Below are positions 7,430 to 33,060 of a stretch of DNA of 64,000 bases, in pieces (position 1 is the stretch's first letter; each line of letters opens with the position of its first letter). Origin of the DNA: Arthrobacter sp. ERGS1:01. GTDB taxonomy: Bacteria > Actinomycetota > Actinomycetes > Actinomycetales > Micrococcaceae. Under the pieces are notes generated by a model. That model searched no databases, was not told the origin of the DNA, and was given only the letters and a program-made list of their open reading frames with translations. Location: contig NZ_CP012479.1 in NCBI RefSeq assembly GCF_001281315.1, positions 2,046,001 to 2,110,000 of the forward strand. Reading direction: 5' to 3'. Made by a program: the position numbers and the translations under genes.

Positions 7430-7445
7430 TCCCGTAAGAGGTTCC
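7430..7445 (+). repeat. Regional repeat, unit 1a
   Basis: TCCCGTAAGAGGTTCC, followed by AGTTGAGAGA. It is tandem with unit 1b and matches the left arm and loop of the regional palindrome. Confidence 0.75.
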
Positions 7446-7455
7446 AGTTGAGAGA

Positions 7456-7516
7456 TCCCGTAAGAGGTTCCTGTTGAGAGACGGTCCACGTCTCAAGCCC
7501 TTGCATGACGGTTCTG
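7456..7516 (+). repeat. Regional repeat, unit 1b with 61-bp extension
   Basis: Starts TCCCGTAAGAGGTTCC and continues TGTTGAGAGACGGTCCAC. The whole 61-bp block matches 11820-11880 at 53 of 61 positions. Confidence 0.8.
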
Positions 7517-7694
7517 CAACGTCCATCGACACACTGCATGCTATTGATTAACTGCCTCAGCGCTTTCCTAGCTGGCGATAGATCCATGGAATCCCTACTG
7601 GAATGCCCTCAGCACAGACCGGTGTCCTGCCAACAAACGGAGCACAGTGCACATAGAATCTCGGGCAAGCGCGTTAACTGCCAATGACAGATGT

Positions 7695-7958
7695 TCAATT
7701 GTGGGCCCGCCGCCAAAGAATGAAGTACTTGATACCCAATCCCAAAAACAGAATCCCGAAAATGAGCCCTAGAATATGGACTTTACCTTCAGAAATAAAA
7801 ATGAAGACGACGAGAACCAAGAAAACGGTGGCAAGAGTAGCAGAACCAAATCCTAGAAAAGCGAAAAAGTGTGGATCCCTTCTACCGTACTGCGGTTCGG
7901 TCAGGCCAAGGAAGTCGGTGAACCGACGTCCACGCCCCACCGGTTTCTCATCTGACAT
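7695..7958 (-). CDS. Small membrane protein
   Basis: An 87-residue protein with an N-terminal charged part and two helices (about 35-56 and 62-80, the second ILGLIFGILFLGLGIKYFI), ending WRRAHN. No family is recognised. Upstream of the ATG at 7958 the box TAGTGT is followed by 7 bases and the start codon, so the mRNA is predicted leaderless. The gene is AT-rich at its 3' half compared with its neighbours, suggesting acquisition. Confidence 0.65.
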   Translation of the reverse strand: MSDEKPVGRGRRFTDFLGLTEPQYGRRDPHFFAFLGFGSATLATVFLVLVVFIFISEGKVHILGLIFGILFLGLGIKYFILWRRAHN

Positions 7959-8231
7959 AAGAAGAACACTACGTAACGTGCATGGACCTGTCTATGCACT
8001 ACTGATGCTCTCAGGGCCTCACAAAGTGACCCGTGCAAGGTTTGATCCGATCGCCGGGGTCAGAACAGATCATGGCGGCCATGGTGTCGGCAAAGTGGCC
8101 AAACGATTGATCCTCTCTTGGGGCTCTCCCGCGAAGGCATGTCCCGCATGCCGGTGGTGCGTGGATCGAACGGCGCCGCAGGCCGGCACGAGCGCAGGGT
8201 GTTGCGGCGCGCTGGTTGCCGGCCCGGGCTT

Positions 8232-8771
8232 TCAGGGGGCCGTCGTTGCCGGGACGGAGGCGAGTTTCGCCGTGATGGCCTGGGCTTCCTTTTGGATTGT
8301 CGCGCCGTAACCACCGCTGAGCGCGGTTGACTTGATCAGGGCCGCGTCCGCGTCGCGGGATGCAGCCGGAGCCGCTTCAAGGGTCGACAAGTCGGTCTTC
8401 AGTTGCGTCGGCAGCTTGGCGAACGCGGCCGGCCGGTGGATGAGGGCAAACGCCACCACATGGGCTCTGTCGCCGTACCCGGTCTTCGCCTGGATGTCGA
8501 TACGCAACTCCTTGCGGAGCAGATGCACCTCCGGGCTTTTGGCGTGATTCTTAGCAGCGGTCTTTAGACCCTGTGTACCGGCCGTGGCGTGCGCTCCGGC
8601 GGCCGGCGCTGACGTGCTGGCCGTTGGCGAGGGTCCGGACGCAAAAGCAGCCGTCCCCCCGAAGATTCCGGCTCCAAGGAGCAGGGCACCGGCGGCCCCG
8701 GCTGCCGTGCGCTTGCGCCACCGCCTCCCGGGCGCCGCAGCAGAGGCCGGCGTGGTGTGGTCAATGTTCAT
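8232..8771 (-). CDS. Secreted protein next to a two-component system
   Basis: A 179-residue protein. The N-terminus has a Tat/Sec-like signal (GRRWRKRTAAGAAGALLLGA, cleavage likely near AFASG), then an Ala/Thr/Ser-rich linker and a helical domain with VHLLRKELRIDIQAKTGYG. The mature part ends near the stop without a membrane anchor, so it is likely secreted. It is divergent from the response regulator across 171 bases, a layout that suggests control by it or a sensing role. The function is unknown. Confidence 0.7.
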   Translation of the reverse strand: MNIDHTTPASAAAPGRRWRKRTAAGAAGALLLGAGIFGGTAAFASGPSPTASTSAPAAGAHATAGTQGLKTAAKNHAKSPEVHLLRKELRIDIQAKTGYGDRAHVVAFALIHRPAAFAKLPTQLKTDLSTLEAAPAASRDADAALIKSTALSGGYGATIQKEAQAITAKLASVPATTAP

Positions 8772-8942
8772 GATTACTCCCTAGTAAATTGCGGAGATTG
8801 CTGTGTCTCGCACTGCGCTTCGGTGGGTGGTGATTTCAGTGTGGCGGACGGGTATCCGTTCCACGTATAAGGAATGTAAGGGCCAGGTAAAGAATGCGCG
8901 GCGTAGCCCCCACACCAGTCTGCACAAGGGTTCAATGGAACC

Positions 8943-9674
8943 ATGGAACAAGGCACCGACCCGGCACCCCCACAGACCCGCGGCCTCGTCTTGATAGTGG
9001 AGGACGACGGCGCAATCGCCGACGTCCAGCGCCTGTACCTGCGCCGGGCAGGCTTTGGCATCCACATCGAGGCAAGCGGAGAAGCGGGACTGGCAGTGAT
9101 CCGCAGCCAGCGGCCGGTGGCCATCGTACTGGACATCGGCCTGCCGGGAATGGACGGGATCGAATTCTGCCGCCTGCTGCGCGCCCAGGACGACTGGACC
9201 CCCATCATCTTTGTCACCGCACGAGACGAGGAAGTGGATAAGATACTGGGTTTGGAGCTAGGCGCCGATGACTACATGACCAAGCCATTTTCTCCTCGCG
9301 AGCTGGTTACCCGAGTCAAGACGGTGCTCCGCCGCGGCCCGGCACGCAGGGGCAGCGGGGTGCTTCGTGTCGGATCCGTGACTCTAGACCCGGGCAACCG
9401 CACCGTCGACGCGGACGGTCTGCCGGTGGAACTGACTGCCCGGGAATTCGATGTCCTGGCCTACCTGTTGGCCACCCCCGGCCACGTCTACAGCCGCGAA
9501 CAGCTCCTCTCCGCGGTCTGGGGGCAGGCCAGCTACACGCCCGGGCGGACCGTTGACGTCCAGATCGCCGCACTCCGGTCCAAACTGGGCGCCGCCAGCC
9601 CGATCCAAACCCTGCGCGGCGTCGGCTACACAGCCCGCAGCCTGCCGGACAGAGACGGCGAGCATGGAAGATAA
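8943..9674 (+). CDS. OmpR-family response regulator
   Basis: A 243-residue protein. The receiver domain (about 14-130) has the acidic pair ED/D at 20-22, phospho-acceptor Asp64 in VLDIGLPGM, the switch Thr in FVTARD and the conserved Lys in MTKPFSP. The C-terminal winged helix (about 145-235) has ELTAREFDVLAYLLATPG and the end motif TLRGVGYTA. It overlaps the frame region of the kinase that follows, so the two form one operon. It probably controls the divergent secreted-protein gene and itself. Confidence 0.92.
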   Translation: MEQGTDPAPPQTRGLVLIVEDDGAIADVQRLYLRRAGFGIHIEASGEAGLAVIRSQRPVAIVLDIGLPGMDGIEFCRLLRAQDDWTPIIFVTARDEEVDKILGLELGADDYMTKPFSPRELVTRVKTVLRRGPARRGSGVLRVGSVTLDPGNRTVDADGLPVELTAREFDVLAYLLATPGHVYSREQLLSAVWGQASYTPGRTVDVQIAALRSKLGAASPIQTLRGVGYTARSLPDRDGEHGR

Positions 9675-9728
9675 CGGCCGCGCACGCCCAGTCCCCCTAA
9701 CCGCAGACCGCCCCTCCACCCCGAGGGC

Positions 9729-11123
9729 GTGGTTTCACTCGGTGGGCGGGGCATCACGCTGGTGACGGCCGCCGTCGCCATTCTGGCCGTACTGGTCACC
9801 GGCCTCGTTGCCTTTCCGCTCATCCGGGCCGCTACCGTAGACTCGGCACGGCAGCAGCTTGCCAGGCAAGCGGATGCCTACGCGGCGGCCCCCGCGGCCT
9901 CGCGCGCCCTTGATGTCAGGGAGCGCTCCGTGCTGGGGCCGCAAACATACAAGCTCTCCACCATCACCGCTTCCGGAACCGTCACGGGACCCGCGCAGCA
10001 CCTCCTGGCACCGGCAGAGATCGGGCAGGTGCTCACCGGGCAGAACCTCTCCCGGACACTGTCCACCAATGGCGGGGAGCTACTGCTGGAGGCCCGTGCG
10101 CTTAAACGAGGCGGCGGCATTGTGTTGACCCGATCCCTTCAGGACATCAACGCAGAGTCAGCCCAATTACTAACACGAACCCTTCTGGCCCTCGGCATCG
10201 GGCTACTGATTGCAGTCCTGGCCGGCACCCTGCTGGCCCGGCGGCTCTCCCGGCCCCTGGTGCGGACCGCAGCTGTCGCGCGCCGGATCGCTGCTGGTGA
10301 GCGAACAGTAGAGCTGGCGCCCTCCGGGATGACGGAGGTGCGGGCGATCGGCGAGGCAATCACCACCTTGGACCAAGCCCTTATAGCCAGCGAGGACCGC
10401 CAGCACGAATTCCTGCTCTCTATCACCCACGAGATCCGCACGCCGCTGACGGCGGTGCGCGGCTACGCAGAAGCCATGGTGGACGGACTCGTCCTGCCGG
10501 AAGACGTGGCACGCGTGGGGCAGGTCCTGGCCGCCGAAACAGACCGGCTGGACGGGTTTGTCCGCGATCTGCTGGCGCTAGCCCGCCTGGAGGCCGAGGA
10601 TTTCGCCTTGGAAGTTGGGCCCGTGAATGTTGAGGGAATTCTAAAACAGGTGCAGGAAGCCTGGCACGGTGCCGCCGCCCAAGCCGGCGTGCCGCTTCAA
10701 CTCCGCCTGCCAGCAAATGGCGAAGTCGTTGCTGTCACCACGGACGGACAGCGTTTGCGGCAGATCATCGACGCCCTGGTGGGTAATGCGCTGCGGGTGA
10801 CGCCGGCAGGAAAACCCCTGGTAATTGAAGTCAGACTGGAGTATTCGGCGGCAGCCCCGGCAGGCCTGCCCGACGTCGTCGCGGTTGACGTGCGGGACAA
10901 CGGCCCCGGACTGACCGCCCAGGACGCGGCCGTGGCGTTCGAACGAGGAGTGCTTCACCGCCGCTATGCTGGCCAGCGGCCGGTGGGCAGCGGGCTCGGT
11001 CTCTCCATCGCCGCCCGATTGGCACAACGGCTCGGAGTGCAGCTCTCGGTAGAGCCGACAGTCTCCACCGACGACGGCGCGTGCTTTTGCATCCGACTAC
11101 CGCGCAGCCCCCAGGAACAATGA
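9729..11123 (+). CDS. Sensor histidine kinase
   Basis: A 464-residue membrane kinase starting at a GTG. TM1 is near 9-31, an extracytoplasmic sensor of about 115 residues follows, and TM2 is near 149-170. A HAMP segment leads to the H-box EFLLSITHEIRTPL with phospho-His about 234, the N-box ALVGNALRVTP, the G1 box VRDNGPGL and the G2 box VGSGLGLSIA. It is the partner of the regulator upstream. The sensor part shows no known fold. Confidence 0.9.
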   Translation: MVSLGGRGITLVTAAVAILAVLVTGLVAFPLIRAATVDSARQQLARQADAYAAAPAASRALDVRERSVLGPQTYKLSTITASGTVTGPAQHLLAPAEIGQVLTGQNLSRTLSTNGGELLLEARALKRGGGIVLTRSLQDINAESAQLLTRTLLALGIGLLIAVLAGTLLARRLSRPLVRTAAVARRIAAGERTVELAPSGMTEVRAIGEAITTLDQALIASEDRQHEFLLSITHEIRTPLTAVRGYAEAMVDGLVLPEDVARVGQVLAAETDRLDGFVRDLLALARLEAEDFALEVGPVNVEGILKQVQEAWHGAAAQAGVPLQLRLPANGEVVAVTTDGQRLRQIIDALVGNALRVTPAGKPLVIEVRLEYSAAAPAGLPDVVAVDVRDNGPGLTAQDAAVAFERGVLHRRYAGQRPVGSGLGLSIAARLAQRLGVQLSVEPTVSTDDGACFCIRLPRSPQEQ

Positions 11124-11562
11124 ACCGCCAGCAGCACAAGTCATGCTACCTGCGGACGCGCACCCAGTGAGCGGCCGGTGATGGACCCGGAGAGCGACCG
11201 GTACACCGCAAAGATGCTGAAACTGGCACGAACAGTGATACCCACTGTTTGGCTATGGCTATTGTGGCAAGCCCCCCCCTTGCATCAGTGAGGGCAACAC
11301 ACCCCGGATGCGTATTTTGTTCGCGAGGACGACGCGGCACCCGGTGGAGATTTCAGACACATAGTCGCCGGCAGTCCAGGGCACAAGCCATTCCCAATAC
11401 CCGTCCCACAGGTGGCTCGGTGTCCGGTACACAGGATTCGCCATTCTGGAATGATCATCGCCCAACTCATCGTGGGCACTTCAGAGCCATCCGGGCTAGG
11501 ATGCCTTCCACAGGTGGCATTGCAATTACTCGCCGCAGATCCGAGGAATCGGGGCAAATACA
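11124..11562. other. Intergenic stretch between kinase and small gene
   Basis: A 68-codon minus-strand frame (11259-11465) with several Trp reads like protein but has no ribosome site or leaderless promoter. It may be a gene fragment. Nothing else is supported. Confidence 0.35.
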
Positions 11563-11715
11563 TTGATCTGGATTCAGGCAGCGATCGTTTTTTGCGGCAT
11601 CGTGCTGGCCATAGCGAGCGAGTCTTGGCTTGGGCGGATTGCAGGCATTCTCCTGTCAGTGTCAGGAATTATCGGGTTGCTGCTTACTTTGAAGAGACGA
11701 AAATCAGAGCCATAG
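11563..11715 (+). CDS. Putative 50-residue two-helix membrane protein
   Basis: Read from TTG at 11563 with GAGGAATCGGGG upstream. The peptide has a helix AAIVFCGIVLAIA, a short turn ESWLG and a second helix IAGILLSVSGIIGLLLTL, and ends KRRKSEP. Size, helical hairpin and basic tail match the small protein at 7080-7259. The start codon is uncertain and no family is recognised. Confidence 0.4.
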   Translation: MIWIQAAIVFCGIVLAIASESWLGRIAGILLSVSGIIGLLLTLKRRKSEP

Positions 11716-11819
11716 CCGATTGGAAGCTGCCTGAAGCTCTCTAGCGAGACGTCTGAATACAGCTAGTCTGCCGGAATGGCTGCGATTCCGGTGCATAGGG
11801 TATCTGGCATCCTTCAACT

Positions 11820-11880
11820 TCCCGCAAACCGTTCCTGTTGAGAGACGGTCCACTTCTCAAGCGCTTGAATGACGGTTCTC
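11820..11880 (+). repeat. Regional repeat, unit 2 (61-bp form)
   Basis: TCCCGCAAACCGTTCC then TGTTGAGAGACGGTCCAC. Same direction as unit 1b and 53 of 61 identical. It ends exactly at the stop codon of the minus-strand gene 11880-12098. Confidence 0.8.
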
Positions 11881-12098
11881 TAGTCTCCGTCTGACCGTCG
11901 TTTGCGTTCACGAGCGGCGGCCCTACCTAGCGGTATTGTCACCAACAACAGCAGGAGTACCGGAACCCCCATTGTGATGAATGGACTGAGGCGGAGAGAT
12001 ATCGCTATTAGCCCACCTATGAATATGGACGCCATGCCCCCAATCCAGACGATTCGGGTGTAACGCTTCGCCGCGGGCCCCACGTTGCGCGCTTCCAT
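11880..12098 (-). CDS. Small two-helix membrane protein
   Basis: A 72-residue protein with helices IVWIGGMASIFIGGLIAI (about 16-34) and FITMGVPVLLLLLVTIPL (about 40-57), ending in a basic tail AARERKRRSDGD. The ATG at 12098 follows TAGAGT plus exactly 6 bases, so a leaderless transcript is predicted. It sits alone between repeat unit 2 and unit 3, like a single-gene cassette. Its function is unknown. Confidence 0.65.
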   Translation of the reverse strand: MEARNVGPAAKRYTRIVWIGGMASIFIGGLIAISLRLSPFITMGVPVLLLLLVTIPLGRAAARERKRRSDGD

Positions 12099-12152
12099 GG
12101 GTCAACTCTAGTGACGGAATTGGAAGTACGATGATTTGAACCTCAGACATAA

Positions 12153-12182
12153 CTGCCCACAGAGGGTTCCCGTGTGGGGCAG
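12153..12182 (+). repeat. Regional repeat, unit 3
   Basis: CTGCCCACA, loop GAGGGTTCCCG, TGTGGGGCAG; one bulged base in the stem. Confidence 0.7.
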
Positions 12183-12320
12183 CCCGGTCTACGGGACACC
12201 TCGGAAAGGGACTGCCCGGTTTTGCCTGTTTGGGAATCATGGGAGCCAATTTCATTGGTCGAGCGGCACCGCGTGTGCAACGAGGATGCCCATCACCGCT
12301 ATCTTTGAGAGGCTCGACTC

Positions 12321-12809
12321 ATGAACGCACTCAGGGACCTCCGCGGATACGCCATCCGGTCGGCGCTCAATGAGACCGTCGGCGCAGACGTGTTGATTGA
12401 TACTGCCGTGCGCGCACTCTTGGAAGGCGTAGACTCGCCGTCCCTCCCCCTCCTGGCCGGGCTCTCGCGCAGAGAGGAAGGCGAAGCGCAAGAACTCTTC
12501 CGCGCGGTCACCACTGAATTGGATCTCGCTCCCCCATCGCCCATCGACTCACAGAGTACGCGTTGGCGCTTGGTCCGTTGGCTGTGCGAGGCCATCGTCG
12601 ATGGAAGTGCCCAGCCAGAAGTCGCCGGAAAGTTCATCTGGGACCGCTGGGACGAGCTGGGCTATCCGAAATCACTCCAACCCCTTGTTGGCCGGGTCAG
12701 CGAATGGGACGACTGGCACCCCTCATGGGATGTAGAACGCGAACACTTTCAGGGGCTTATCGTCGATGAAGCCAAGACCCTCCTCAGCGGGACGTGGCCA
12801 CCTAGCTAG
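12321..12809 (+). CDS. Hypothetical protein, single gene between two repeats
   Basis: A 162-residue soluble, acidic, helical protein with no known domain recognised. Trp-rich C-terminal half (WRLVRWLCEAIVDGS, FIWDRWDELGYP, WDDWHPSWDVE). The pattern resembles small immunity-type proteins of actinobacteria but no family can be named. ATG 12321 has GAGAGG nine bases upstream. It fills the interval between repeat units 3 and 4 almost completely, with its own promoter region after unit 3. Confidence 0.7.
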   Translation: MNALRDLRGYAIRSALNETVGADVLIDTAVRALLEGVDSPSLPLLAGLSRREEGEAQELFRAVTTELDLAPPSPIDSQSTRWRLVRWLCEAIVDGSAQPEVAGKFIWDRWDELGYPKSLQPLVGRVSEWDDWHPSWDVEREHFQGLIVDEAKTLLSGTWPPS

Positions 12810-12867
12810 AGGAACCGCCCAGAAATCTGAACTGGGTCCAAAGCATCGGCATAATAGCCTCTTCCTC

Positions 12868-12894
12868 GCCCCAGTCGAGGTTCCTCTGTGGGAC
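12868..12894 (+). repeat. Regional repeat, unit 4
   Basis: GCCCCAGTC, GAGGTTCC, TCTGTGGGAC; a degenerate copy with the same loop and direction, 59 bases after the preceding gene's stop. Confidence 0.55.
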
Positions 12895-14078: not shown

Positions 14079-14089
14079 AAACAAAGCAT

Positions 14090-14112: not shown

Positions 14113-14129
14113 TGTGTTATCGTTTCGGG

Positions 14130-16731: not shown

Positions 16732-16903
16732 GGAATCCTGCCCAGATCGCGCGTTAGACGTTCCCCAATGGGACCGGCTTACGGTACGCGCAAGCGGAGT
16801 GCACACTTCTTTGGTACCCAATTCAGTTGCTTTCGAAAAATGAGAAAGTCAGAAGTCCAAACCTTTAGAGTCCGTTACCGGCCTGTATGGCTAGAGACGC
16901 CCC

Positions 16904-18382: not shown

Positions 18383-18463
18383 CCACGCGCACCCAACCTA
18401 ACGGGAACACTCCAACCGCGGTCACCACTATCAGTCACAAATGCACCACATGCCGCTTCACTC

Positions 18464-18489
18464 GTCCCGCAGAGGGTTCCCTACCGGAC
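18464..18489 (+). repeat. Regional repeat, unit 5
   Basis: GTCCCGCAGAGGGTTCC followed by CTACCGGAC; arms pair around the AGGGTTCC loop. Confidence 0.8.
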
Positions 18490-18530
18490 AGCGCCAAAGT
18501 CAGGCAAACAAGGTGCCGTAGAATCGGGAC

Positions 18531-19015: not shown

Positions 19016-19044
19016 CTGCCCGCTGAAGGTTCCACTGCGCGACG
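19016..19044 (+). repeat. Regional repeat, unit 6
   Basis: CTGCCCGCTGAAGGTTCC then ACTGCGCGAC; it begins 2 bases after the preceding stop codon. Confidence 0.65.
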
Positions 19045-19075
19045 GACTAGCCCTGCTTCCTGATTCAACTACACG

Positions 19076-19576
19076 TCAGCCGGACGTGGGCGGGCGATCG
19101 CTGCCTGTTGCCCCGCCCAGGCCAGTCGACCGCCCCTGCGCAAGCGCCGCCCTTACCCGTGCATGCGCACTGTCCCGGTCCACACCCGCATCCTCCAGTG
19201 CCCGATCCAGGCGGTCGCCATGGACACTCAGCACCCCGAACAACAGGTGCTTGATCCCGACGTGATCCGAAGGAAACTCCCGCGAGGCGCGCTGCGCGGC
19301 CATGAGGGCGTCTAAAGCCTCGGGGGTGAACGGGAATGATGCTGAGGTGTCCAGCGGACCAGGGGAGGCGAAACGCATTATCGCCTCACGCACGTCATCG
19401 GGCCAGACGCCCAGTGCCGTCTGCACCGCGTCCGGTTCAGCGTGCACAAGCCCCAACAGCAAATGCTCGGGACCGATGTACGCGTCATGCATCATCACCC
19501 TTGCCTCTTCCTGGGCCAGGACCACCACCCGCACAGCCCTGTCGGTGTGGTTGCCAAACTCCGTCGAACGGCCCAT
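19076..19576 (-). CDS. Clp N-terminal-domain protein
   Basis: A 166-residue protein with two Clp-N repeats and no ATPase. Repeat 1 has VVVLAQEEARVMMHD with YIGPEHLLLGLVH, repeat 2 VGIKHLLFGVLSV. Such stand-alone domains may act as adaptor or decoy for ClpC. A longer in-frame extension to 19768 would overlap the divergent VOC gene. ATG 19576 is chosen because TACCCT stands 6 bases before it, a leaderless layout seen repeatedly here. Confidence 0.75.
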   Translation of the reverse strand: MGRSTEFGNHTDRAVRVVVLAQEEARVMMHDAYIGPEHLLLGLVHAEPDAVQTALGVWPDDVREAIMRFASPGPLDTSASFPFTPEALDALMAAQRASREFPSDHVGIKHLLFGVLSVHGDRLDRALEDAGVDRDSAHARVRAALAQGRSTGLGGATGSDRPPTSG

Positions 19577-19767
19577 GCCCCTAGGGTAGTCTTCGCGGCG
19601 GGCCAGCACCACGGGCGCGCCTCCCGATGCGCGGAAGAGCGCACGTCCCGCAGGAGGTTCGACATACGGCAATCGGACGTACCGCAGCGTCGGCACGCAT
19701 TCAAATGGTCCCAACGAATTTCGGGGATTCCTGCTCGTGTGAAACTTGTGAGATGGAAGATGAATCA

Positions 19768-20157
19768 ATGGGCGCCTTGCACCATGTAGAGCTGTGGGTG
19801 CCGAGTCTTGGACGTGCCAGGGATGAGTGGGGCTGGATTCTGACGAGTTTGGGATACACGATCTATCAGAATTGGGACCGGGGTACTAGCTGGCGGCGAG
19901 GTGTCACCTACATCGTTGCGGAGGAGTCGCCGGCGTTGACTAGCGAAGATCATCAGCGAACCGCGGCCGGATTGAATCACCTAGCATTTCATGCCGGAAG
20001 TGAACAACACGTTGATGCACTGCTGGAGGAGAGCCAACTCCATGGTTGGCAGCCGCTATTTGCGGAGAAATATCCCTACGCAGGTGGACCCGAAAACTAC
20101 GCCGCCTACCTGGTGAACTCCGACGGATTCGAAATCGAACTCATCGCCAGCAAGTGA
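19768..20157 (+). CDS. VOC-family (glyoxalase-like) protein
   Basis: A 129-residue vicinal-oxygen-chelate protein with the paired beta-alpha-beta modules (HHVELWVPSLGRA at the start, LNHLAFHAGSEQHVDALL in the middle, DGFEIELIAS at the end). Metal ligands expected at His5-6 and the final Glu. Whether it is a lyase, an isomerase or a drug-binding protein cannot be told. ATG 19768 has GGAAGA upstream; ATG 19753 is an alternative. It shares one repeat-bounded interval with the Clp-N gene. Confidence 0.78.
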   Translation: MGALHHVELWVPSLGRARDEWGWILTSLGYTIYQNWDRGTSWRRGVTYIVAEESPALTSEDHQRTAAGLNHLAFHAGSEQHVDALLEESQLHGWQPLFAEKYPYAGGPENYAAYLVNSDGFEIELIASK

Positions 20158-20176
20158 CCCGAAACCTTTCCACCGA

Positions 20177-20205
20177 TGTCCCGTAGCCCGTTCGGTAATC
20201 GGGCA
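20177..20205 (+). repeat. Regional repeat, unit 7, with extended outer arms
   Basis: TGTCCCGTA, loop GCCCGTTCGG, TAATCGGGCA. Outer arms TTTCCACCGAT (20167-20177) and 20211-20221 also pair, extending the hairpin to about 55 bases. Confidence 0.75.
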
Positions 20206-21250: not shown

Positions 21251-21281
21251 CCGTCCCGCAGGAGGTTCCTCTGCCGGACGG
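21251..21281 (+). repeat. Regional repeat, unit 8 (best-paired copy)
   Basis: CCGTCCCGCAG pairs with CTGCCGGACGG with one mismatch around GAGGTTCCT. Outer bases TGAAACCG/CGGTTCA also pair. CCAAATTCCAATGGTTC follows at 21303-21319. Confidence 0.85.
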
Positions 21282-21733: not shown

Positions 21734-21868
21734 GCGCTGACGCTACAAGCAGCGTCAGTATTTGGGAAGGGGTCAGGCACACACGAGCTCGCAGTTCCCG
21801 ATGCTGCCGCCGTTACTCGCTGCATCTGATCCGATTTTGGCATTCACGCGTCCAAAGTGCCGTATTTC

Positions 21869-21900
21869 GTCCGGTCAAGGTTCCCAATAGGGAATGCGGG
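21869..21900 (+). repeat. Regional repeat, unit 9 (degenerate)
   Basis: GTCCGGTCAAGGTTCCC then AATAGGGAATGCGGG. The loop is conserved and the arms are weaker. Confidence 0.5.
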
Positions 21901-24478: not shown

Positions 24479-24964
24479 GCCCCAATGCTAGCAACCGGCA
24501 ACCTCGCGATGTTTCCAATGTCGACGGGCAGTCAATCTTGCGGAGCCTGCATAGAAACGGGCTCACCCAGGTCGACGGACTCGAACCGTCCCAACGTAGT
24601 GAGGTCAATCGCTGTGATGGGACCAAGATGATCACCAGGTTCAGCAAATTGCACTGACCGGAGGCCTCAGCGTCGATGTTCAGGCGAAGGCGAAGCGGGA
24701 ATCTGGGCACTCGTCGCCAAAAGGGAGTCATATTCTCCTCACGTTGAACCGTCAAAGATTTTCGCCTGCCGCCCCGATCCACTCGAGACAACCTAGAGAC
24801 GTAAAAATGCCCCGTAAAGGGTTCCCCTTCGGGCGCTGAAACTTTACTCAGTAGCCCGTTGGTTTATGGGCGGGAGTAGGTCAGGATGTAATCATGGGTT
24901 CAGCGGTTCCGGTGGCCAATTTCCTGGCTAGACCGGCCTCACCGGGATTCCAGGGAAGATCGCG
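24479..24964. other. Intergenic stretch with repeat unit 10 and a coding remnant
   Basis: On the minus strand around 24540-24660 a peptide-like frame (EPGDHLGPITAIDLTTLGRF) has no start and is cut by stops, probably a gene remnant. The T-arm-like sequence in it is judged a coincidence. Repeat unit 10 lies at 24809-24834. Confidence 0.4.
24809..24834 (+). repeat. Regional repeat, unit 10
   Basis: GCCCCGTAAAGGGTTCC then CCTTCGGGC. Outer bases GTAAA (24801-24805) and TTTAC (24843-24847) pair as well. Confidence 0.75.
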
Positions 24965-26310: not shown

Positions 26311-26538
26311 TTGTTAAAAACCTAGACGGCAAAACTAGGAGCCGGCATGGTCGGGACTGCCTAAGTCCCCTTAGTTCGCAGATTCAGGGTCTTCAACCGT
26401 CCCGATGACCGTTGGAGAGCGGGACATGCTAGTGGGAGAGTTCGACTTCGGTGCACGTCCCCGGGGTCCGGATGGTGCGGCCGCACCATCCGGACGGGTG
26501 CTAGGCTCCGACCGTTCCCGAAGGCTGGATGCTGTTCG

Positions 26539-26706: not shown

Positions 26707-27782
26707 CGTATCTGTCCGACCCACTGGATCTGCGCCATGGGCACCCTCTGCCCAATCGCCTGGTCCTCGCGCCCATGACCAATCAGCAGAGCAATCCGGA
26801 CGGGACCCTCTCAGATGACGAGCTCGCCTGGCTGGTCGCCCGCGCCGAGGGAGGGTTCGGCCTTTTGCAGACCGCGGCCGCATATGTGCACCCGGCAGGC
26901 CAGGTCTGGCCCGGCCAGCTCAGTATCTCCTCCGACGAGCACCTCCCCGGGCTGGAACGCCTTGCCGCCGCCGTCTCCGCCGCCGGTGCGCGATCCTCCG
27001 TGCAACTCCACCACGGAGGCGTGCGTGCGGAAAAGGCGCTGTCCGGCCAGGAGGTCATGGGTCCGTGGGATGATGCGCAGACCGGGGTGCGAGGCATGAC
27101 GACCGGTGAAGTGCAGCAAGCGGTCGAGGACTTCGCCGAGGCCGCAGCACGCGCCGAGAAAGCCGGCATCGACGGCATCGAAGTACACGGAGGCCACGGC
27201 TACCTGGTCGGCCAGTTCCTCGACGCCTCAAACAACCTCCGAGCGGACGGGTACGGGACTGATCCCACCGGGCGAGCCCGGTTCGTGAAAGAGGTTGTAC
27301 ATGCGGTCCGGGAACGCACTGGCCCGGGCTTTCACATCGGGCTCCGACTCTCCGTCGAACGCTACGGCTTGGTCTTGACGGACATGGTCCAACTCGTCGG
27401 CGAGCTTTTCGCCAGTGGGGACATTGACATCCTGGATCTGTCGTTGTGGGACGTTGCGAAGCCTCCCACCAATGCCCCGGAAGGCGGCAGAACGCTCCTC
27501 GAGCACTTCCTCGACCTGCCACGCCACGGAACAGCCCTCGGTGTCGCTGGGCACCTAACTAGCGCAGCGGCGGTAAAGCGGGTACTCGACCAGGGGGCTG
27601 ACCTCGCCTACATCGGCAAGGCAGCCATCGCCGACCACGCCTTCTCCCTTCGGGCCATTGCCGACCCCGGCTATCGCGCACCGTCATTCCCCGTGACACG
27701 GGACCACCTCCGCTCAGAAAAACTCGCAGATCCGTTCGTGTCATACTTCGCAACCAACTGGCCTCAGCTAGTGCAAGACTGA
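26703..27782 (+). CDS. Old Yellow Enzyme-type NADH:flavin oxidoreductase
   Basis: A 359-residue FMN TIM-barrel enzyme that reduces activated alkenes with NAD(P)H. Seen are the FMN-binding start PNRLVLAPMTNQQS, the substrate His region IDGIEVHGGHGYLVGQFLD with DASNNLRADGYG (a variant of the usual HGAHGYLL/SPxxNxRxDxYG), and a C-terminal phosphate-binding ADLAYIGKAAI. ATG 26703 has AGGAG six bases upstream. It stands alone between small unknown genes. Confidence 0.88.
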   Translation: MTYLSDPLDLRHGHPLPNRLVLAPMTNQQSNPDGTLSDDELAWLVARAEGGFGLLQTAAAYVHPAGQVWPGQLSISSDEHLPGLERLAAAVSAAGARSSVQLHHGGVRAEKALSGQEVMGPWDDAQTGVRGMTTGEVQQAVEDFAEAAARAEKAGIDGIEVHGGHGYLVGQFLDASNNLRADGYGTDPTGRARFVKEVVHAVRERTGPGFHIGLRLSVERYGLVLTDMVQLVGELFASGDIDILDLSLWDVAKPPTNAPEGGRTLLEHFLDLPRHGTALGVAGHLTSAAAVKRVLDQGADLAYIGKAAIADHAFSLRAIADPGYRAPSFPVTRDHLRSEKLADPFVSYFATNWPQLVQD

Positions 27783-27840
27783 CGCCACTCAACTCCTCCA
27801 CGAGCCAGACACTATCGACAGCTATCGATGGATCACAATG

Positions 27841-27866
27841 TCCCGTATGCCGTTCCGTATTCGGGA
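27841..27866 (+). repeat. Regional repeat, unit 11, with extended outer arms
   Basis: TCCCGTA, loop TGCCGTTCCG, TATTCGGGA. Outer CACAATG (27834-27840) pairs with CATTGTG (27873-27879). Confidence 0.8.
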
Positions 27867-27942
27867 TCACTACATTGTGCCGGCACGGATTGTCGGCGAC
27901 GAATGTCGAGAATTTCTCCGGACTCGGTTGCGACAGGGCTGG

Positions 27943-28833
27943 CTACCTCACCGGCCGGTTGGGAATGTCGGCGTCCCAAGTCAGGTCCGCACCCTCCTGC
28001 AGTGGGAGTGCTTCGATGGTCGGGTCTTGCACGAGCGCTGATATGAGCTCAGGGCTGCCAGCGATCACCGTAGAGTCGAAGTCGATTTCTGTCACTAAGA
28101 CCCACTGTCCGTCCGTAGGCCACAGAATGTTCGGTGACTGCGGCCATCCCGGGGAATGGTGCCAGGGCACATGGTTCACCCAGTCAGAATCTATGTAAAA
28201 CTGTGGCGCAGCATTGAACAAGTAGTAGGCGCGCCCCGGCAGGTCAAGTGTTTCTCCGTTGACTACCTCCGCTTGCAGCAGGCCCGACCCCGGTCCGCTG
28301 CCTAGAGTCGCGGCAGCGACCTTATTTTCCAGGTGAACGCCGTCGCTGGAAACAGCAAGCTCGGCGTATCCGGCGGAACTTGTCAGGCCTCCCCACCCTT
28401 CCCAGACGGCGGACACGCCCTGATCGGGTGTGGACGTGTGCTTGCCGAGGTGGACGGCAGCCGCCGCCAGTGTTTCCGGTGCAAGGTTGCCGGTCCGGGG
28501 TGCCGAATAGCGCCAGCCCGCGGCATCCAAAATTTCTTGCCCATTCGATTCCGTGCCAAGGACGCGGTGAAATTGAGCCAGCGGGTGCATATGGGTGCCG
28601 AATGCCTGCGCCACTGCTGCCCAAGAAACCTTTTCACATTCAAGAGGGTAGACATCCGTTCGGGCATGACCGTGCCAGGTTCCGGTGTCTTTCGGACGGT
28701 CTCGCTCAACCGGATGGAAGATCCTCGCGTAGGCAAGGAAGCCTCGCGGAACGACCGTGTGCATGTCATGCCACTTGGTATCAAGGAGCGACCTGAGCCA
28801 TTCACCAGGATCAGCATTGGTCAAGGATTCCAT
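27943..28833 (-). CDS. Hypothetical protein, 296 residues
   Basis: A soluble protein with many Trp and His (GTWHGHARTDVYPLECEKVS, YYLFNAAPQFYIDSDWVNHV, HVPWHHSPGWPQSPN). The last third reads like a ligand- or sugar-binding beta domain. No family name can be given. ATG 28833 follows TATGCT plus 6 bases (leaderless), which excludes the 66 extra in-frame codons upstream. Divergent from the phosphotransferase-like gene across 161 bases. Confidence 0.68.
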   Translation of the reverse strand: MESLTNADPGEWLRSLLDTKWHDMHTVVPRGFLAYARIFHPVERDRPKDTGTWHGHARTDVYPLECEKVSWAAVAQAFGTHMHPLAQFHRVLGTESNGQEILDAAGWRYSAPRTGNLAPETLAAAAVHLGKHTSTPDQGVSAVWEGWGGLTSSAGYAELAVSSDGVHLENKVAAATLGSGPGSGLLQAEVVNGETLDLPGRAYYLFNAAPQFYIDSDWVNHVPWHHSPGWPQSPNILWPTDGQWVLVTEIDFDSTVIAGSPELISALVQDPTIEALPLQEGADLTWDADIPNRPVR

Positions 28834-28994
28834 GACGCCAGCATAGTAGCCGGACGATCGATCCAGTGCAGGGCTATACCCGCACCGCTGTGCCGCACGG
28901 GGTTCCTGTTCCGGGGTGGAAGCAGAAGGCGACTCTGTGAGCGATAGCCACCTTTTGGCTCCAGCTGCGGAGTCCCTGTTTGTAGAATCAAACG

Positions 28995-29930
28995 ATGGAG
29001 ACACCGGAGCTACCCGTCCCAGTTGGGGCATGGTGTTTTCGTGCGCTCGGTCCCGGCACCCTCACGCCGTTGCAGGCCGACGCTGGCGGTGAAATGTCCA
29101 CCCAGTTTCGCTACGATTCCAACGAGCTCGGCATTGTTGCCGTCAAAGTACGGGCGGATTCCATCGACAGGATCAACCGATGCCTTCAACTTCAGCGCAT
29201 CGCGGCAGATGCCGGTTTCCCGTGTGCCCGGCCCGTCACAGACGCGGACCAGCTCGGGCCCGGCCTGGTAGTCAGCGCTGAGACATGGCGACCCGGCGGT
29301 ACGATGCATGCCGGCGGCGGTCGTCCCTTCGCGGCTCGATCTGCCGAACTCTTAGCGAACTTGACGGGAATTCTTGAAACACAGTCTCCAACCGGACTTG
29401 GCCCACCCCCGCCGTGGATGCACTGGAATCCCCCAACAGGCCGCTTATGGCCGCCCAATCCAGCAATCGACGCAATGGACCAGGACCTGGTGCCTGATCG
29501 CGTGCACGCCACTGCCCGTGCCGTCTCCGAACGCCTAGCACGGGCAGAGTTGCCCCTGGTTGTCGGGCACGGTGACTGGGAGAGCCAAAACTTACGCTGG
29601 AACGACGATCACCCCTGGGCGGTCCATGATTGGGACAGCCTTGTCGCACTCCCGGAAGCGGCCATTGTCGGAGCAGCATCCGGCGCCTTTGCCAGCACCA
29701 CCATCCCGACACTGGCACCCATCGAATGGTCGGAGGAATTCATCGGCTCCTTCCAGCTGGCGCGGGGCAGGTCGTTTACCGAGGAGGAGCGTGAAGTTGC
29801 CTGGGCTGCGAGCCTGTGGCCCGCACTGCACAACGCCCGCGGCGAAAGCCTCTTCCACTCCCCGCCGGTCACGCTGGACGCGCTCACCCGGCAGGGAAGG
29901 GAACGACTTCACCGCGCAGGCGTCCGGTAA
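28995..29930 (+). CDS. Aminoglycoside-phosphotransferase-fold protein
   Basis: A 311-residue APH-like kinase. The catalytic loop is LVVGHGDWESQNLRW (HGDxxxxN) and the metal motif is AVHDWDSL; the N-lobe has VAVKVRADS with the ATP-contacting Lys. Such proteins phosphorylate aminoglycosides, homoserine, choline or other small molecules; nothing here decides which. TAGAAT plus 6 bases precedes ATG 28995 (leaderless). Its stop lies inside repeat unit 12. Confidence 0.8.
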   Translation: METPELPVPVGAWCFRALGPGTLTPLQADAGGEMSTQFRYDSNELGIVAVKVRADSIDRINRCLQLQRIAADAGFPCARPVTDADQLGPGLVVSAETWRPGGTMHAGGGRPFAARSAELLANLTGILETQSPTGLGPPPPWMHWNPPTGRLWPPNPAIDAMDQDLVPDRVHATARAVSERLARAELPLVVGHGDWESQNLRWNDDHPWAVHDWDSLVALPEAAIVGAASGAFASTTIPTLAPIEWSEEFIGSFQLARGRSFTEEEREVAWAASLWPALHNARGESLFHSPPVTLDALTRQGRERLHRAGVR

Positions 29931-29946
29931 AGGTTCCCGAAATGAC
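29921..29946 (+). repeat. Regional repeat, unit 12 (degenerate)
   Basis: CGTCCGGTAAAGGTTCCCG then AAATGAC; overlaps the stop codon of the preceding gene. Confidence 0.45.
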
Positions 29947-29991
29947 ATAACCAGCGGGCTCAGGTTGCCCCGGCTCGATCTCGGCCACCAG

Positions 29992-30527
29992 TTACGGCGT
30001 GCTTCCTTCGATGAGTGGCTGTGCCACCCGTGTGATTCCAACGCCTGGGAGTTGGCGGTTCTTCAGCAAGGCTTGAATGCTTGACAGCGTGGTCCGCTCC
30101 GCGGAAAACCTGGCGGAAGTCTTATATATGCACCTTTGCTCAGCCTCACGCTCATCCTCGTCGAAATCGACCTCCGCATTAAACAGGTCAGTGATGGTCC
30201 TGTGGTCGTGACCGATCGACGGTTGAAAATTGACCACATCTCCCGTGATGGGGCAATCAATGTAGTTTGTTGGCGGCGTACCGTCACTGATCTCCTTGAT
30301 GTCAATACCAATGTAGAGCGTCATTCTGTTGCCGTACCGGTCTTTGGTGAGGCTGTAGACCCAGGAGATTTCCTCAAATTCCAGCATCCAGGTTATGGAT
30401 CCTACTTTTTTTGAAACCGGCCAGTTTCATCTCTTCGCGGAAGATTCGACGCATGTCGTTGATGGTCATCGGGTCCGAGTGTCCAGGTCCCCGTCCTGGA
30501 TGCGCATGCTGCTGTCCCGCGTTCATG
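29992..30527 (-). pseudogene. DUF4304-like protein interrupted at an A7 run
   Basis: Two frames join at a run of seven A (30406-30412 as T on the plus strand). The upstream frame starts at ATG 30527 and carries INDMRRIFREEMKLAGFKK; with six A it would continue in the frame VGSITWMLEFEEISWVYSLT and on to the stop at 29992. The combined protein of about 178 residues resembles DUF4304-type proteins (N-terminal helix, a GFK motif, then a beta-sheet). It could be a phase-variable gene, a real loss or a sequencing indel. The next gene is an immunity-like protein. Confidence 0.55.
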
Positions 30528-30802
30528 GTGCCTGCTTTCAAAGACGGTTAAGTTGTCGACATTAGCGCCCAGGCCGACGGATCAGATGCGGGCATGTCCG
30601 CCTCATGGCCACGACACTTCAGGAGTCGGCTTCCCAGCCAGCAGGACGAGCCTGACTCGAGAACCGGATACTGAGTTCACCCTATAGCCTGACGCAACGC
30701 GTGAGCAGGCCGGCGGACCCCTTAAAGGACCCCGTGCTCGGCCGCGCATCTCTAGCGTCTCGGAGCATCAGGAGTCCTGCAGGCCGCCGATAAATCGTTG
30801 GG

Positions 30803-31150
30803 TCAATCGTGGACAATCGCTGCATCGAACCAAATGTCCTCGTGGCCAGGGGCAAGCAGAAACCGTGACCCTGGAGGCAGAGCCAGATAGTCAATCACTT
30901 GCGGGCACCAATTCGCCAAGTGGGAGACATGCAACGGAACAAAGAAATCACTGTCCTCCGACAGTTCCTCCCCTGCCCAAATGTACCAACCCGTCGTATC
31001 CCCCACCGGAATATGCCGCAGGCCATTGATCGGCACTACGCCGTCTTGAACATTCCGGGAAATCCCGACTTTCATAGCCGAAGGACTAGCCAGAGGCTCA
31101 GCACCGACACGTACACAAACATCGAGCTGCTGGTTGGACACACCGTTCAT
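30803..31150 (-). CDS. Immunity-protein-like protein (Imm33-type, tentative)
   Basis: A 115-residue protein. The C-terminal half GWYIWAGEELSEDSDFFVPL with LANWCPQVIDYLALPP and DIWFDAAIV matches a pattern known from small proteins often annotated as Imm33-domain immunity proteins of polymorphic toxin systems. ATG 31150 has GGGGAT upstream. No toxin gene is nearby, so it may be an orphan immunity gene protecting against other strains' toxins (inference). Confidence 0.6.
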   Translation of the reverse strand: MNGVSNQQLDVCVRVGAEPLASPSAMKVGISRNVQDGVVPINGLRHIPVGDTTGWYIWAGEELSEDSDFFVPLHVSHLANWCPQVIDYLALPPGSRFLLAPGHEDIWFDAAIVHD

Positions 31151-31343
31151 CTGATCCCCACGTTTCGATACAAATTCTCGATTGCATACCCAAGCTTGCC
31201 ACGGTGGTCTCGACAAGAGACAGACCTTGTCCGATTCCGGACAGGAAGCACCTCCAGCCTGACAATCGACTACCTAGACCGTCATGCGTGGCCGGCAGTG
31301 GACAATGCCAAATTTGACTGGATTGGCACCGCAGCGTGGGATC

Positions 31344-31370
31344 GTCCCGCAGAGGGTTCCGGCTACGGAC
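31344..31370 (+). repeat. Regional repeat, unit 13
   Basis: GTCCCGCAGAGGGTTCC then GGCTACGGAC; the first 17 bases equal unit 5. Confidence 0.8.
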
Positions 31371-31592
31371 TGCCCCGTTCTAGACGGCCGCCTCTGTCCA
31401 ACGAAGTAAGGTACCAATCGCGGCAGCACCAACCAACCCGCCTCAGCCATTGTGGTAATGCCATGACGCAACCTGCCACTGCACCTGAGTCCCGTCCCAT
31501 TTGGCACAGACCGTGGGGGCGGCAGTCGTCGCCGGCGCGTCCTTACGGCTTACTTGGTGATCTCATACGTCAGCACATACCAACTCACGGGT

Positions 31593-31679
31593 CTACTTTT
31601 TGCGTCGATTGAACATAAACAATACGATAAGAGCGCATAAAACACCGACAATTCCGCCCAATATTATTGCTGTAGACAA
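31593..31679 (-). CDS. 28-residue single-pass membrane peptide
   Basis: Read from TTG 31679 with CAGGAGACTC upstream. The peptide is one hydrophobic helix (AIILGGIVGVLCALIVLFMF) followed by NRRKK, the look of a type-I toxin or a small regulator of a membrane partner. It lies 21 bases behind a second mini-gene. AT-rich compared with the surroundings. Confidence 0.45.
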   Translation of the reverse strand: MSTAIILGGIVGVLCALIVLFMFNRRKK

Positions 31680-31700
31680 TTTGAGTCTCCTGAGAGGTGT

Positions 31701-31805
31701 TTAACTAGTCAGCTGCATAAATGTATTTGCTACGGCCTCGGAATCCGCTCCTCCGACAAGACAACATGACAGTCCAATGACGGCGACCCATCGTCCTTTG
31801 CGCAT
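31701..31805 (-). CDS. 34-residue secreted or membrane peptide
   Basis: Starts at ATG 31805 with GTGAGGC six bases upstream. The N-terminus KGRWVAVIGLSCCLVGGADS looks like a signal or short anchor with two adjacent Cys; the rest is EAVANTFMQLTS. It is followed closely by the 28-residue membrane peptide, so the two may form an operon. No family is recognised; a truncated secreted protein is an alternative. Confidence 0.4.
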   Translation of the reverse strand: MRKGRWVAVIGLSCCLVGGADSEAVANTFMQLTS

Positions 31806-32175
31806 GATTGCCTCACACCCATTTAGGCTTTGTGCGGTGTCAAGAAATTGACCTAAAGCGAACCCTACGCATGCTTATGGGCAGGTGTCTACGGCTTTCC
31901 AAAGAAAGTGCAATGATGCAAACTGGGCCACCAAGAGTGCAGGCCCTTCGGGGCAAGTTCAGGTGGTGTCCCGCAGCAGGTTCGTACTGCGGGACGAGCG
32001 GATCTAGGCTACCTTGGGGCTCCCAGAGATCCGTTACATCTAGCCCGACTTGGCCCCCAACTGTGGACAGTTCCTTGGGCTTTGAGGTCCAAAGGAAATC
32101 ATCCAGGGAAGGCTCCCGCCGATACCCCAGCCTCTTCAGAAGGTACCCATGGGTCATGAAGCTAGGCTGATGCTT
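31806..32175. other. Intergenic stretch with repeat unit 14
   Basis: Apart from the palindrome at 31968-31995 nothing is supported; a minus-strand frame of 169 codons here is the shadow of the gene starting at 32176. Confidence 0.4.
31968..31995 (+). repeat. Regional repeat, unit 14 (perfect 9-bp stem)
   Basis: GTCCCGCAG, loop CAGGTTCGTA, CTGCGGGAC. Perfectly paired. Confidence 0.85.
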
Positions 32176-32655
32176 ATGGACCCGAAGGAAGACGAGAACG
32201 GTACCAAGTACGACTGGCAATCCCGACCGTCTGATTCGTTGGAGGGCATGCCTCCAAAACGAAGGCGACTGGTTGTTTGGGGACTGTGGTGGTTCTTTGT
32301 CTTGGGTTTGCTGCAGGGCGCCGCACTGGATGCTTTGGACGTTCCACAACCTTGGCGCCTCCTCGTGACAGTCGCAGGATTGGCTGCTGTGTTCGGTCCA
32401 TTGATCCGAGGGGCAGTGATTGAAGCCCGCGGACTCCGTGCCGAAGGCATCGCCCTACCGTCCTATCCGGTCACCCCGAAGTCCTTGATTTCCATCGCCA
32501 TCATCACCTCTGTTCTTTGGGCCGTTTTCGCCTTCCTCATCGCTGAAGGCAGACCCACGTTCCCTCTCCTGCCAATCATTGGCACGATTTGGGTGACCTA
32601 CAACTTGCTCCGACTTCGATCACGACAGCGTAAGGGGACTGCCCGGGAGCCATAG
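32176..32655 (+). CDS. Membrane protein, 159 residues
   Basis: Four helices are likely (about 31-52, 58-80, 101-122, 128-143) after a polar N-terminus of 30 residues; the end is basic (RLRSRQRKGTAREP). No family is recognised. TAGGCT is followed by 7 bases and ATG 32176, a leaderless layout; the earlier ATG at 32149 is not favoured. It is the only gene between repeat units 14 and 15. Confidence 0.65.
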   Translation: MDPKEDENGTKYDWQSRPSDSLEGMPPKRRRLVVWGLWWFFVLGLLQGAALDALDVPQPWRLLVTVAGLAAVFGPLIRGAVIEARGLRAEGIALPSYPVTPKSLISIAIITSVLWAVFAFLIAEGRPTFPLLPIIGTIWVTYNLLRLRSRQRKGTAREP

Positions 32656-32677
32656 ACTCCCAAGCAAGGCCGAGGCC

Positions 32678-32705
32678 GTCCCGCTATCGGTCCCCCTAGG
32701 GATGC
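32678..32705 (+). repeat. Regional repeat, unit 15
   Basis: GTCCCGCTATCGGTCCC then CCTAGGGATGC; 22 bases later the 17-bp repeat copy B follows. Confidence 0.6.
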
Positions 32706-32726
32706 GCTGCTGCGGCTGATTCATGT

Positions 32727-32743
32727 CCAAATTCCAATGGTTC
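32727..32743 (+). repeat. 17-bp exact repeat, copy B
   Basis: CCAAATTCCAATGGTTC, identical to 21303-21319 and at the same 22-base distance from the palindrome. Confidence 0.75.
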
Positions 32744-32786
32744 CGCGCCCCGAACCCCGGCCCCGCCTGACGAGACGATTCAGCAA

Positions 32787-33005
32787 CTACGGTTCACCAC
32801 GATGACTTCGGTCATTGCTGAAAAAGAACATGGCCAGACCTACTATGCCGATGAACGACACTATGAGAACAAGCCAGTTCGATTTTGCTGCGGCGAGGTA
32901 GATCCCAAATATCAACAAGACAATGAGCGGTATCCCCCAGAGCACGCTGAGGAACCTGCCTCTTTCACGATAAGTCCAGATCTGTCCCTTTTTCGGAAAC
33001 ATCAT
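32787..33005 (-). CDS. Small two-helix membrane protein
   Basis: A 72-residue protein with helices FLSVLWGIPLIVLLIFGIYL and WLVLIVSFIGIVGLAMFFF and a short polar tail NDRSHRGEP. No family is recognised. ATG 33005 follows TAGATT plus 6 bases (leaderless); a GTG just upstream is part of that spacer. It occupies alone the interval between units 15 and 16. Confidence 0.65.
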   Translation of the reverse strand: MMFPKKGQIWTYRERGRFLSVLWGIPLIVLLIFGIYLAAAKSNWLVLIVSFIGIVGLAMFFFSNDRSHRGEP

Positions 33006-33030
33006 CACTACAATCTAGAACACATCGGCT

Positions 33031-33060
33031 AGCCGGCCAAGGTTCCCAGAAGGAACTGCT
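33031..33060 (+). repeat. Regional repeat, unit 16 (degenerate)
   Basis: GCCGGCCAAGGTTCCC then AGAAGGAACTGC; loop kept, arms altered. Confidence 0.45.

Follow-up and report, generated by a model that had tools for sequence, protein, structure and literature searches.

The 64,000-nucleotide stretch of Arthrobacter sp. ERGS1:01 analysed here (the window) contains, between 7.4 and 32.7 kb, an array of genes partitioned by copies of a short imperfect inverted repeat, the cassette site. An initial annotation of this DNA had proposed a gene-cassette array belonging to a recombination system other than an integron, and that interpretation is supported by the exchange of whole units and by breakpoints in the GTTC centre of the repeat. 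Site coordinates are window positions, and each site is anchored at the first G of its GGTTCC. C1, C2 and C3 denote contigs of the same genome, G-numbers compared genomes and L-numbers loci.

The window was rescored with a position weight matrix (PWM) trained on 272 sites of other genomes, at a cut of 13. The training sites had been found with a matrix seeded from the window, so the rescoring of copies is not wholly independent of it; the breakpoint evidence does not rest on the PWM alone. Twenty matches were found on the + strand and one on the − strand (16776), whereas 60 simulated first-order Markov sequences gave 0.1 and 0.22 on average. Sixteen of the 17 copies listed initially pass the cut, the copy at 33031 fails (7.7), and four unlisted copies are added, at anchors 16759, 19656, 26410 and 28901. 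The features are as follows.

7428..7455, + strand: cassette site (anchor 7440, PWM 21.6)
7454..7481, + strand: cassette site, tandem 26-bp duplicate of 7428..7455 (anchor 7466, PWM 18.4, D5 repeat family)
11818..11845, + strand: cassette site, start of c07 (anchor 11830, PWM 20.5)
12153..12180, + strand: cassette site, start of c08 (anchor 12165, PWM 25.3)
12867..12894, + strand: cassette site (anchor 12879, PWM 20.5); identity with C2 32355 ends after GGTTC
16747..16774, + strand: probable cassette site without breakpoint evidence, overlapping the sole − match (16776, GT centre) (anchor 16759, PWM 16.5)
18463..18490, + strand: cassette site (anchor 18475, PWM 26.7)
19016..19043, + strand: cassette site, start of c00 (anchor 19028, PWM 22.1)
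19644..19671, + strand: cassette site, newly added (anchor 19656, PWM 28.2); left-shared breakpoint with C2 33677 and G011 13611
20177..20204, + strand: cassette site (anchor 20189, PWM 19.8)
21252..21279, + strand: cassette site, highest PWM score of the window (anchor 21264, PWM 34.8)
21867..21894, + strand: cassette site (anchor 21879, PWM 21.6)
24808..24835, + strand: cassette site (anchor 24820, PWM 26.3)
26398..26425, + strand: cassette site, newly added (anchor 26410, PWM 14.8); a 75% G003 match stops 26 bp beyond
27839..27866, + strand: cassette site (anchor 27851, PWM 25.4)
28889..28916, + strand: cassette site, newly added (anchor 28901, PWM 19.6); left end of c03, common to G019 and G001
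29920..29947, + strand: cassette site, right end of c03 (anchor 29932, PWM 13.4)
31343..31370, + strand: cassette site (anchor 31355, PWM 30.0)
31967..31994, + strand: cassette site (anchor 31979, PWM 20.3)
32677..32704, + strand: cassette site with TC centre (anchor 32689, PWM 13.9)
33029..33056, + strand: weak site-like copy, not accepted (anchor 33041, PWM 7.7)
11830..12165, unstranded: cassette c07; related unit in G001 (450 bp)
12165..12879, unstranded: cassette c08, open reading frame (ORF) 12321-12809 (+); 96% copy on C2 31641-32355
19028..19656, unstranded: cassette c00, Clp_N-domain gene (−); relatives on C2 and in G006, G007 and G011 (81-98%)
19656..20189, unstranded: cassette c09, glyoxalase-family gene; 77% copy in G008
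28901..29932, unstranded: cassette c03, APH-family gene 28995-29930; 1031-bp unit also in G001 and G019 (76-77%)

As first described, the accepted copies in the window all point one way while the genes between them point both ways, and most of the intervals said to hold a single gene agree with the longest-ORF reading. Cassette c00 shares 98% identity with part of C2 and 96% with its relative in G011. The 60 bp that begin at 7456 match those of 11820-11879 at 88% identity, so the two intervals have their first part in common. No integrase had been seen, and PF00239 and PF00589 matches are indeed both nil in the window.

The repeat is an imperfect inverted repeat of ~28 bp around a central TT, with the consensus TGTCCCGCAGAAGG-TT-CCCCTTACGGA, in which two half-sites of the type TCCCGYARRRGG stand in inverted order. 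Counting the first G of GGTTCC as position 0, the central TT occupies positions 2-3, and only G-TT-C is near-invariant. The TT centre was found in 250 of 293 array-strand sites in a centre-blind scan, a fairer figure than the 303 of 323 matrix-picked sites, which is inflated by the matrix. A degenerate pattern gave 448 + and 423 − matches compared with 853 and 857 for a reversed control pattern; it was too unspecific and was replaced by weight matrices and the sequence-only models R1 and R2.

The two arms are copies of one motif and not a coevolving stem. Compensating changes between the arms, claimed in the initial annotation, do not hold up: arm complementarity was no better than that of shuffled partners (z = 0.3 within the interval and 0.8 at array junctions; 273 intervals, 323 sites), and RNAalifold found no common structure among the sites, and a folded-stem model was rejected on these grounds. 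Arms that do not covary fit poorly with a folded strand of the attC type and point to a duplex in which a protein binds each half-site.

Twenty-eight array regions were compared, each turned so that its main array reads forward. At score 13 they hold 313 sites on the + strand and 57 on the − strand, with up to 37 per region. In the centre-blind scan of these regions, TT-centred matches numbered 250 on the + strand and 15 on the − strand; the remaining − matches have mainly AA or GT centres, the AA-centred ones arising from the dyad read backwards. The sites are clustered and mostly one-directional within each array, not spread evenly through the genome in both directions, the pattern named at the outset as fatal to a cassette array. 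Intervals of 150-3500 bp between sites (n = 273) have a median length of 801 bp (10-90% range, 471-2147 bp), and 269 contain an ORF of ≥60 codons, the longest ORF being forward in 156 and reverse in 113. Region G007a (L087-L088, G007 contig C1, 2.55-2.59 Mb) has its TT sites forward in one block (10-18 kb) and reversed in the next (20-31 kb).

The flanks of the window array are too poorly conserved in the genus for an empty-site comparison at its own locus, and exchange is shown at other arrays instead. All arrays were aligned with one another, retaining same-strand segments of ≥150 bp and ≥60% identity and counting both directions. Among 682 segments common to the 28 regions, 161 start between −30 and +9 of a site and 176 end between 0 and +19. 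Thirty-nine interval families have ≥2 copies and cover 90 of the 273 intervals, the other 183 being single. Neighbours are rarely kept: the left one was retained in 4, and the right one in 4, of 67 homologous cassette pairs in different arrays. Furthermore, near-identical cassettes (96-99%) occur at different places, both within one genome and between species.

The point of exchange was located with site pairs that share sequence on one side only and pass a filter of 85% identity without a shift (40 of 118 left-only and 40 of 125 right-only pairs). Up to position 1-2 the sequence matches the left parent, and from position 3-5 onwards it matches the right one, which places the switch inside the G-TT-C at the site centre, at positions 1 to 4, in the 40 left-shared and 40 right-shared pairs. 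One junction illustrates this directly. In G019, c13 adjoins c15, and in G018 six further intervals lie between them; the site at G019 49965 joins the left half of the site at G018 21193 to the right half of that at G018 27122. Site-specific excision, or its reverse, would be expected to yield such a junction, with one half from each G018 site. The comparison suggested initially for strains was made between species, and in it whole intervals differ in place and order, with breakpoints in the GTTC centre. The units are very likely mobile cassettes bounded by a directional duplex site, and the system is not an integron.

In the G018 and G019 arrays (L068-L070, L078-L081), common cassettes lie mostly in the 3′ part and the 5′ parts differ, hinting at a polarity of insertion in this one pair.

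A tyrosine recombinase had been among the enzymes anticipated beside the repeat; small serine recombinases co-occur with it instead. PF00239 matches number 1 to 14 per genome in 22 of the 23 genus genomes. On 19 contigs of known length with 93 listed sites, at least 19 of 77 PF00239 matches lie ≤10 kb from a listed site, whereas 3.8 would be expected and 2000 random placements gave no more than 11. Removal of 12 weak rows leaves at least 17 of 65 near listed sites, and the conclusion stands. Some recombinases have an array starting upstream of them and are transcribed away from it (C2 26293, C1 near 732 kb, G003 7053), some point towards the array (G001 44697, G018 10134), and for two, at array ends, the gene's own upstream site is itself a TT site (G001 8291, G002 24908). 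In Cryobacterium, locus L171 has eight TT sites in one direction, the last of which adjoins a divergent recombinase. Four proteins, two beside host-genus arrays and one beside the L171 array, combine a PF00239 catalytic domain with a C-terminal HTH_7 domain, and the closest solved structures to the recombinase are DNA invertases and the gamma-delta/Tn3 resolvases.

The site motif also occurs upstream of the recombinase gene itself. Among 79 named relatives of the C2 enzyme (type-A relatives), on which the matrix had not been trained, 76 have enough upstream sequence, and in 47 of these a site lies 100-170 bp ahead of the start codon, compared with 0.57 expected and 0 in five control windows. 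These 47 sites comprise 32 TT sites facing outward, 6 TC sites, 5 GT sites facing the gene and 4 others; they represent 35 distinct sequences and 25 independent upstream groups, many being copies of one element. In addition, the half-site motif is repeated nearer the start codon, like the sub-sites of res. By motif and place, small serine recombinases are probably the agent. At L131 and L135 (2898 and 9882), a second same-strand site lies ~7 kb from the type-A relative's own, as if the recombinase travelled in a larger unit of the same kind.

A related site marks the head of many arrays. Ahead of the first TT site, 18 of 28 regions have a res-like AC-centred site (GT when read on the opposite strand) with the same half-sites, 17 of them within 5 kb; 2 of 28 have one after the last TT site. 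Seventeen head regions align over the central site, one of them at the 3′ side of its array and that of G019 inside its region. Several regions have a second sub-site ~97-109 bp from the head site, and the head site is present even where the neighbouring recombinase belongs to another subfamily. Direct insertion at the head site is not favoured, as its AC centre, differing from TT, makes simple entry of this kind unlikely. Within cassettes, an AC-centred partner stands 69-71 bp downstream of 17 of 296 TT sites (e.g., L039 10161 and L072 16950), and 20 of the 25 partner matches ≤300 bp either side of TT sites fall at 69-71 bp, several of the cassettes being interrelated. This spacing suggests that the inner AC partners may be accessory recombinase binding sites. 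The window array has no AC-type head site at either end and one GT-centred match inside, at 16776. It resembles a cassette cluster without a recombinase of its own, which would be served, if at all, from elsewhere in the genome.

Besides scattered weak matches, the same genome has R1 clusters on C2 (31-38 kb, +), on C1 (712-731 kb, −) and at three places on C3 (2.136-2.142 Mb, +; 3.119-3.121 Mb, +; ~1.50 Mb, −). C2 is probably circular, as its two ends share 1.6 kb at 99%. In all 23 genus genomes R1 gives matches at E <= 1 (4 to 58 each, with ~1 per genome expected by chance), many of which, among the matches listed, lie in one-strand clusters. At E <= 0.1, R1 matches occur in 57 of 149 genomes of the family (~15 expected), with several per genome in genera g1, g18, g23, g24 and g28, and R2 matches in 90 of 297 genomes of the order (~30 expected), with clusters in G374 (12 matches) and G280 (4), which belong to a single genus in a different family. 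Arrays also occur in Cryobacterium (loci L154, L161 and L171). In the class, matches at E <= 0.1 were obtained in 99 of 296 genomes, mostly singly and with no clusters among the matches listed, and these were not taken as arrays. A megablast search of PLSDB plasmids with the window array returned one partial 73.9% match in Nonomuraea and no array.

Cargo was taken as the longest ORF per cassette, some of which may not be genes. Among the 138 cassette proteins scanned, acetyltransferases ranked first (Acetyltransf_1 in 15 proteins), followed by AAA domains, polyketide cyclase, Clp_N, Abi_2, methyltransferase, glyoxalase and APH, as judged from the best 25 of 66 families. Matches to defence models were few (AbiD 1, mad1 2, mad2 2, mad6 1 and weak others).

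Two flanking segments are repeated elsewhere. Window 5603-6865, which contains one ORF with a sub-threshold rve_3 match, has an 86% copy inside an array on G001 contig C2 and may be an insertion sequence adjoining the array. The ~580 bp at window 35469-36046, which recur at 71-76% in several genus genomes, including three places in G011, may be part of an insertion sequence. No tRNA genes or Rfam families were found in the window.

The best explanation as a whole, at a probability of about 75%, is that cassettes are moved between sites by resolvase-type small serine recombinases. The unit boundaries, the crossover zone, unit exchange, the prevailing one-way order of arrays and the motif match upstream of the recombinase are directly supported. 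A cassette would comprise the ~0.5-2 kb from one site centre to the next, usually with one main gene in either direction. A small serine recombinase of the resolvase/invertase type would bind each half-site of the duplex site, cut at the central dinucleotide, with a presumed 2-bp overlap, and exchange cassettes between sites, probably through excised circles as intermediates. Arrays such as that of the window, which lack a recombinase, may be served in trans. TT is not its own complement, so sites could pair one way only and every cassette would enter in the same site orientation, regardless of which way its gene runs.

Several observations weigh against this explanation. Many shared segments do not respect the sites: 396 of 682 starts and 371 of 682 ends lie ≥200 bp from any detected site, flanks outside arrays included. 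The one-way order is not absolute, with 15 reversed TT sites (7 in G007a and 3 in G002a) and sites in both directions at L154, L155 and L161. In the host genus, the site next to type-A recombinases is AC/GT-centred, not TT-centred, so that straightforward insertion at it would not be expected. On the side of the enzyme, 24 of 47 complete small serine recombinases in the fetched regions are more than 10 kb from any strong site, 29 of 76 type-A relatives have no upstream site at the cut used, and several small serine recombinase subfamilies adjoin arrays, so that none is singled out as the agent. Finally, movement is read from sequence comparison, and no recombination was observed.

Other contrary points would also suit a different history, in which the arrays are fossils left by past side reactions of resolvases at sequences resembling res site I, with no dedicated capture system today. 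The AC-centred head site mismatches TT. G016 has an array of 15 sites (L097) yet no PF00239 match in its genome, and the window array is without a PF00239 or PF00589 match in the window. However, cassettes that are 96-99% identical in different places indicate recent movement, and hundreds of copies retain the site motif; a fossil origin is unlikely.

The agent could instead be a tyrosine recombinase (integron-like, Xer/dif-like or other), the serine enzymes being mere neighbours on plasmids or islands. PF00589 genes are present in 23 of 23 genus genomes, one fragment lying ~5 kb from the C1 array, and plasmid-like contigs with arrays could draw resolvases for other reasons. Among the matches listed, 3 of 60 PF00589 matches lie near sites, compared with 1.3 expected and a random maximum of 7, which is no clear enrichment; adding extra rows of the same genome and the C1 sites gives 4 of 64 within 10 kb, compared with 1.4. 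Tyrosine recombinases need a matching overlap of 6-8 bp between their cuts, whereas serine recombinases use a central dinucleotide. Near-invariance at the cassette site is limited to GTTC, too short for a tyrosine recombinase overlap, and the identity switch falls inside it. Given that the motif keeps to one place ahead of the gene for the serine recombinase and that the arms show no attC-like covariation, a tyrosine enzyme is an improbable agent.

It is very unlikely that the sites are dispersed repetitive extragenic palindromic (REP)-like elements or intrinsic terminators, with common intervals produced by homologous recombination between repeats. Short imperfect palindromes between genes do look like such elements, homologous recombination in repeats is common, and two terminator-like matches out of 21 coincide with copies (those at 28901 and 33041). 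However, the sites have no coevolving stem, are clustered and mostly on one strand per array whatever the gene direction, and delimit units that are exchanged exactly and end at the centre of a 28-bp repeat. The breakpoints already contradict the REP or terminator reading, and terminator-like matches are at chance level (7 compared with 9.6, and 14 compared with 11.1). Sigma-70 promoters and terminators as an explanation were rejected, matches being at or below chance. The initial description of the genes as individually promoted finds no backing in the 4 sigma-70-like matches, compared with ~7 in shuffles, although actinobacterial promoters may not fit the sigma-70 pattern.

Integrons are a main route by which bacteria collect and shuffle genes. 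It is somewhat favoured that the arrays described here form a gene-capture platform independent of them, combining a resolvase-type serine recombinase, a res-like head and open-ended TT-bounded cassettes in Micrococcaceae and Cryobacterium, perhaps fed from a shared gene pool and filling the role of integrons; the inner second site suggests topological control of insertion. A second, apparently unrelated cassette system would mean that the cassette-array principle arose more than once. It would also provide a catalogue of mobile genes in soil actinobacteria and a new set of directional recombination sites, and would make it testable how a resolvase becomes a gene-capture enzyme. No such system was found in the open-access literature, preprints and most subscription papers lying outside the search.

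Like integrons, superintegrons and clusters of attC sites lacking integron-integrases (CALIN), the present arrays are long, mostly one-directional series of mostly single-gene cassettes bounded by a recombination site, occurring both with and without a nearby recombinase. The mobile units are bounded by like-oriented sites, with the orientation exceptions given above. One of the layouts has the recombinase facing away from the array, as an integron integrase does (L171; G000 C2 and C1; G003), and acetyltransferases are prominent in the cassettes. The recombinase is, however, probably of the serine and not the tyrosine type, the site is a short duplex inverted repeat with crossover at its centre and no attC-like fold, and the longest cassette ORFs face both ways. 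No IntI-type gene was recognized beside the arrays, judging by the absence of PF00589 from the window and of clear enrichment in the genus among the matches listed, no IntI-specific profile having been run. Of attC features, neither a consensus fold nor arm covariation was detected among the sites, nor an Rfam match in the window, and the site core GTTCC is unlike the R-box consensus. A large survey reports no complete integron in Actinobacteria and describes integrons there as 'very occasional' (PMC9024848). If the proposed platform is real, the integron's role would be filled in a clade where integrons are very rare.

In enzyme and site the arrays resemble the res/resolvase systems of the Tn3 family (gamma-delta, Tn3) and Gin-type invertases, with which they share a small serine recombinase (PF00239 plus HTH_7), a dyad crossover-like site with a central dinucleotide and extra half-site copies upstream of the recombinase gene. 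The occurrence of the site motif in the recombinase's own upstream region (47 of 76 loci; 17 head regions aligned) is a trait of res systems. The known use of Tn3-family resolvases and Gin-type invertases is cointegrate resolution or segment inversion, whereas in the present arrays unrelated genes are separated by tens of single sites, which define the units of exchange. The pdif sites of Acinetobacter, at which XerC/XerD act, likewise split up genes on plasmids by short recombinase sites; those sites alternate in orientation and are served by tyrosine recombinases, whereas the sites of one array here point mostly one way and have a TT centre.

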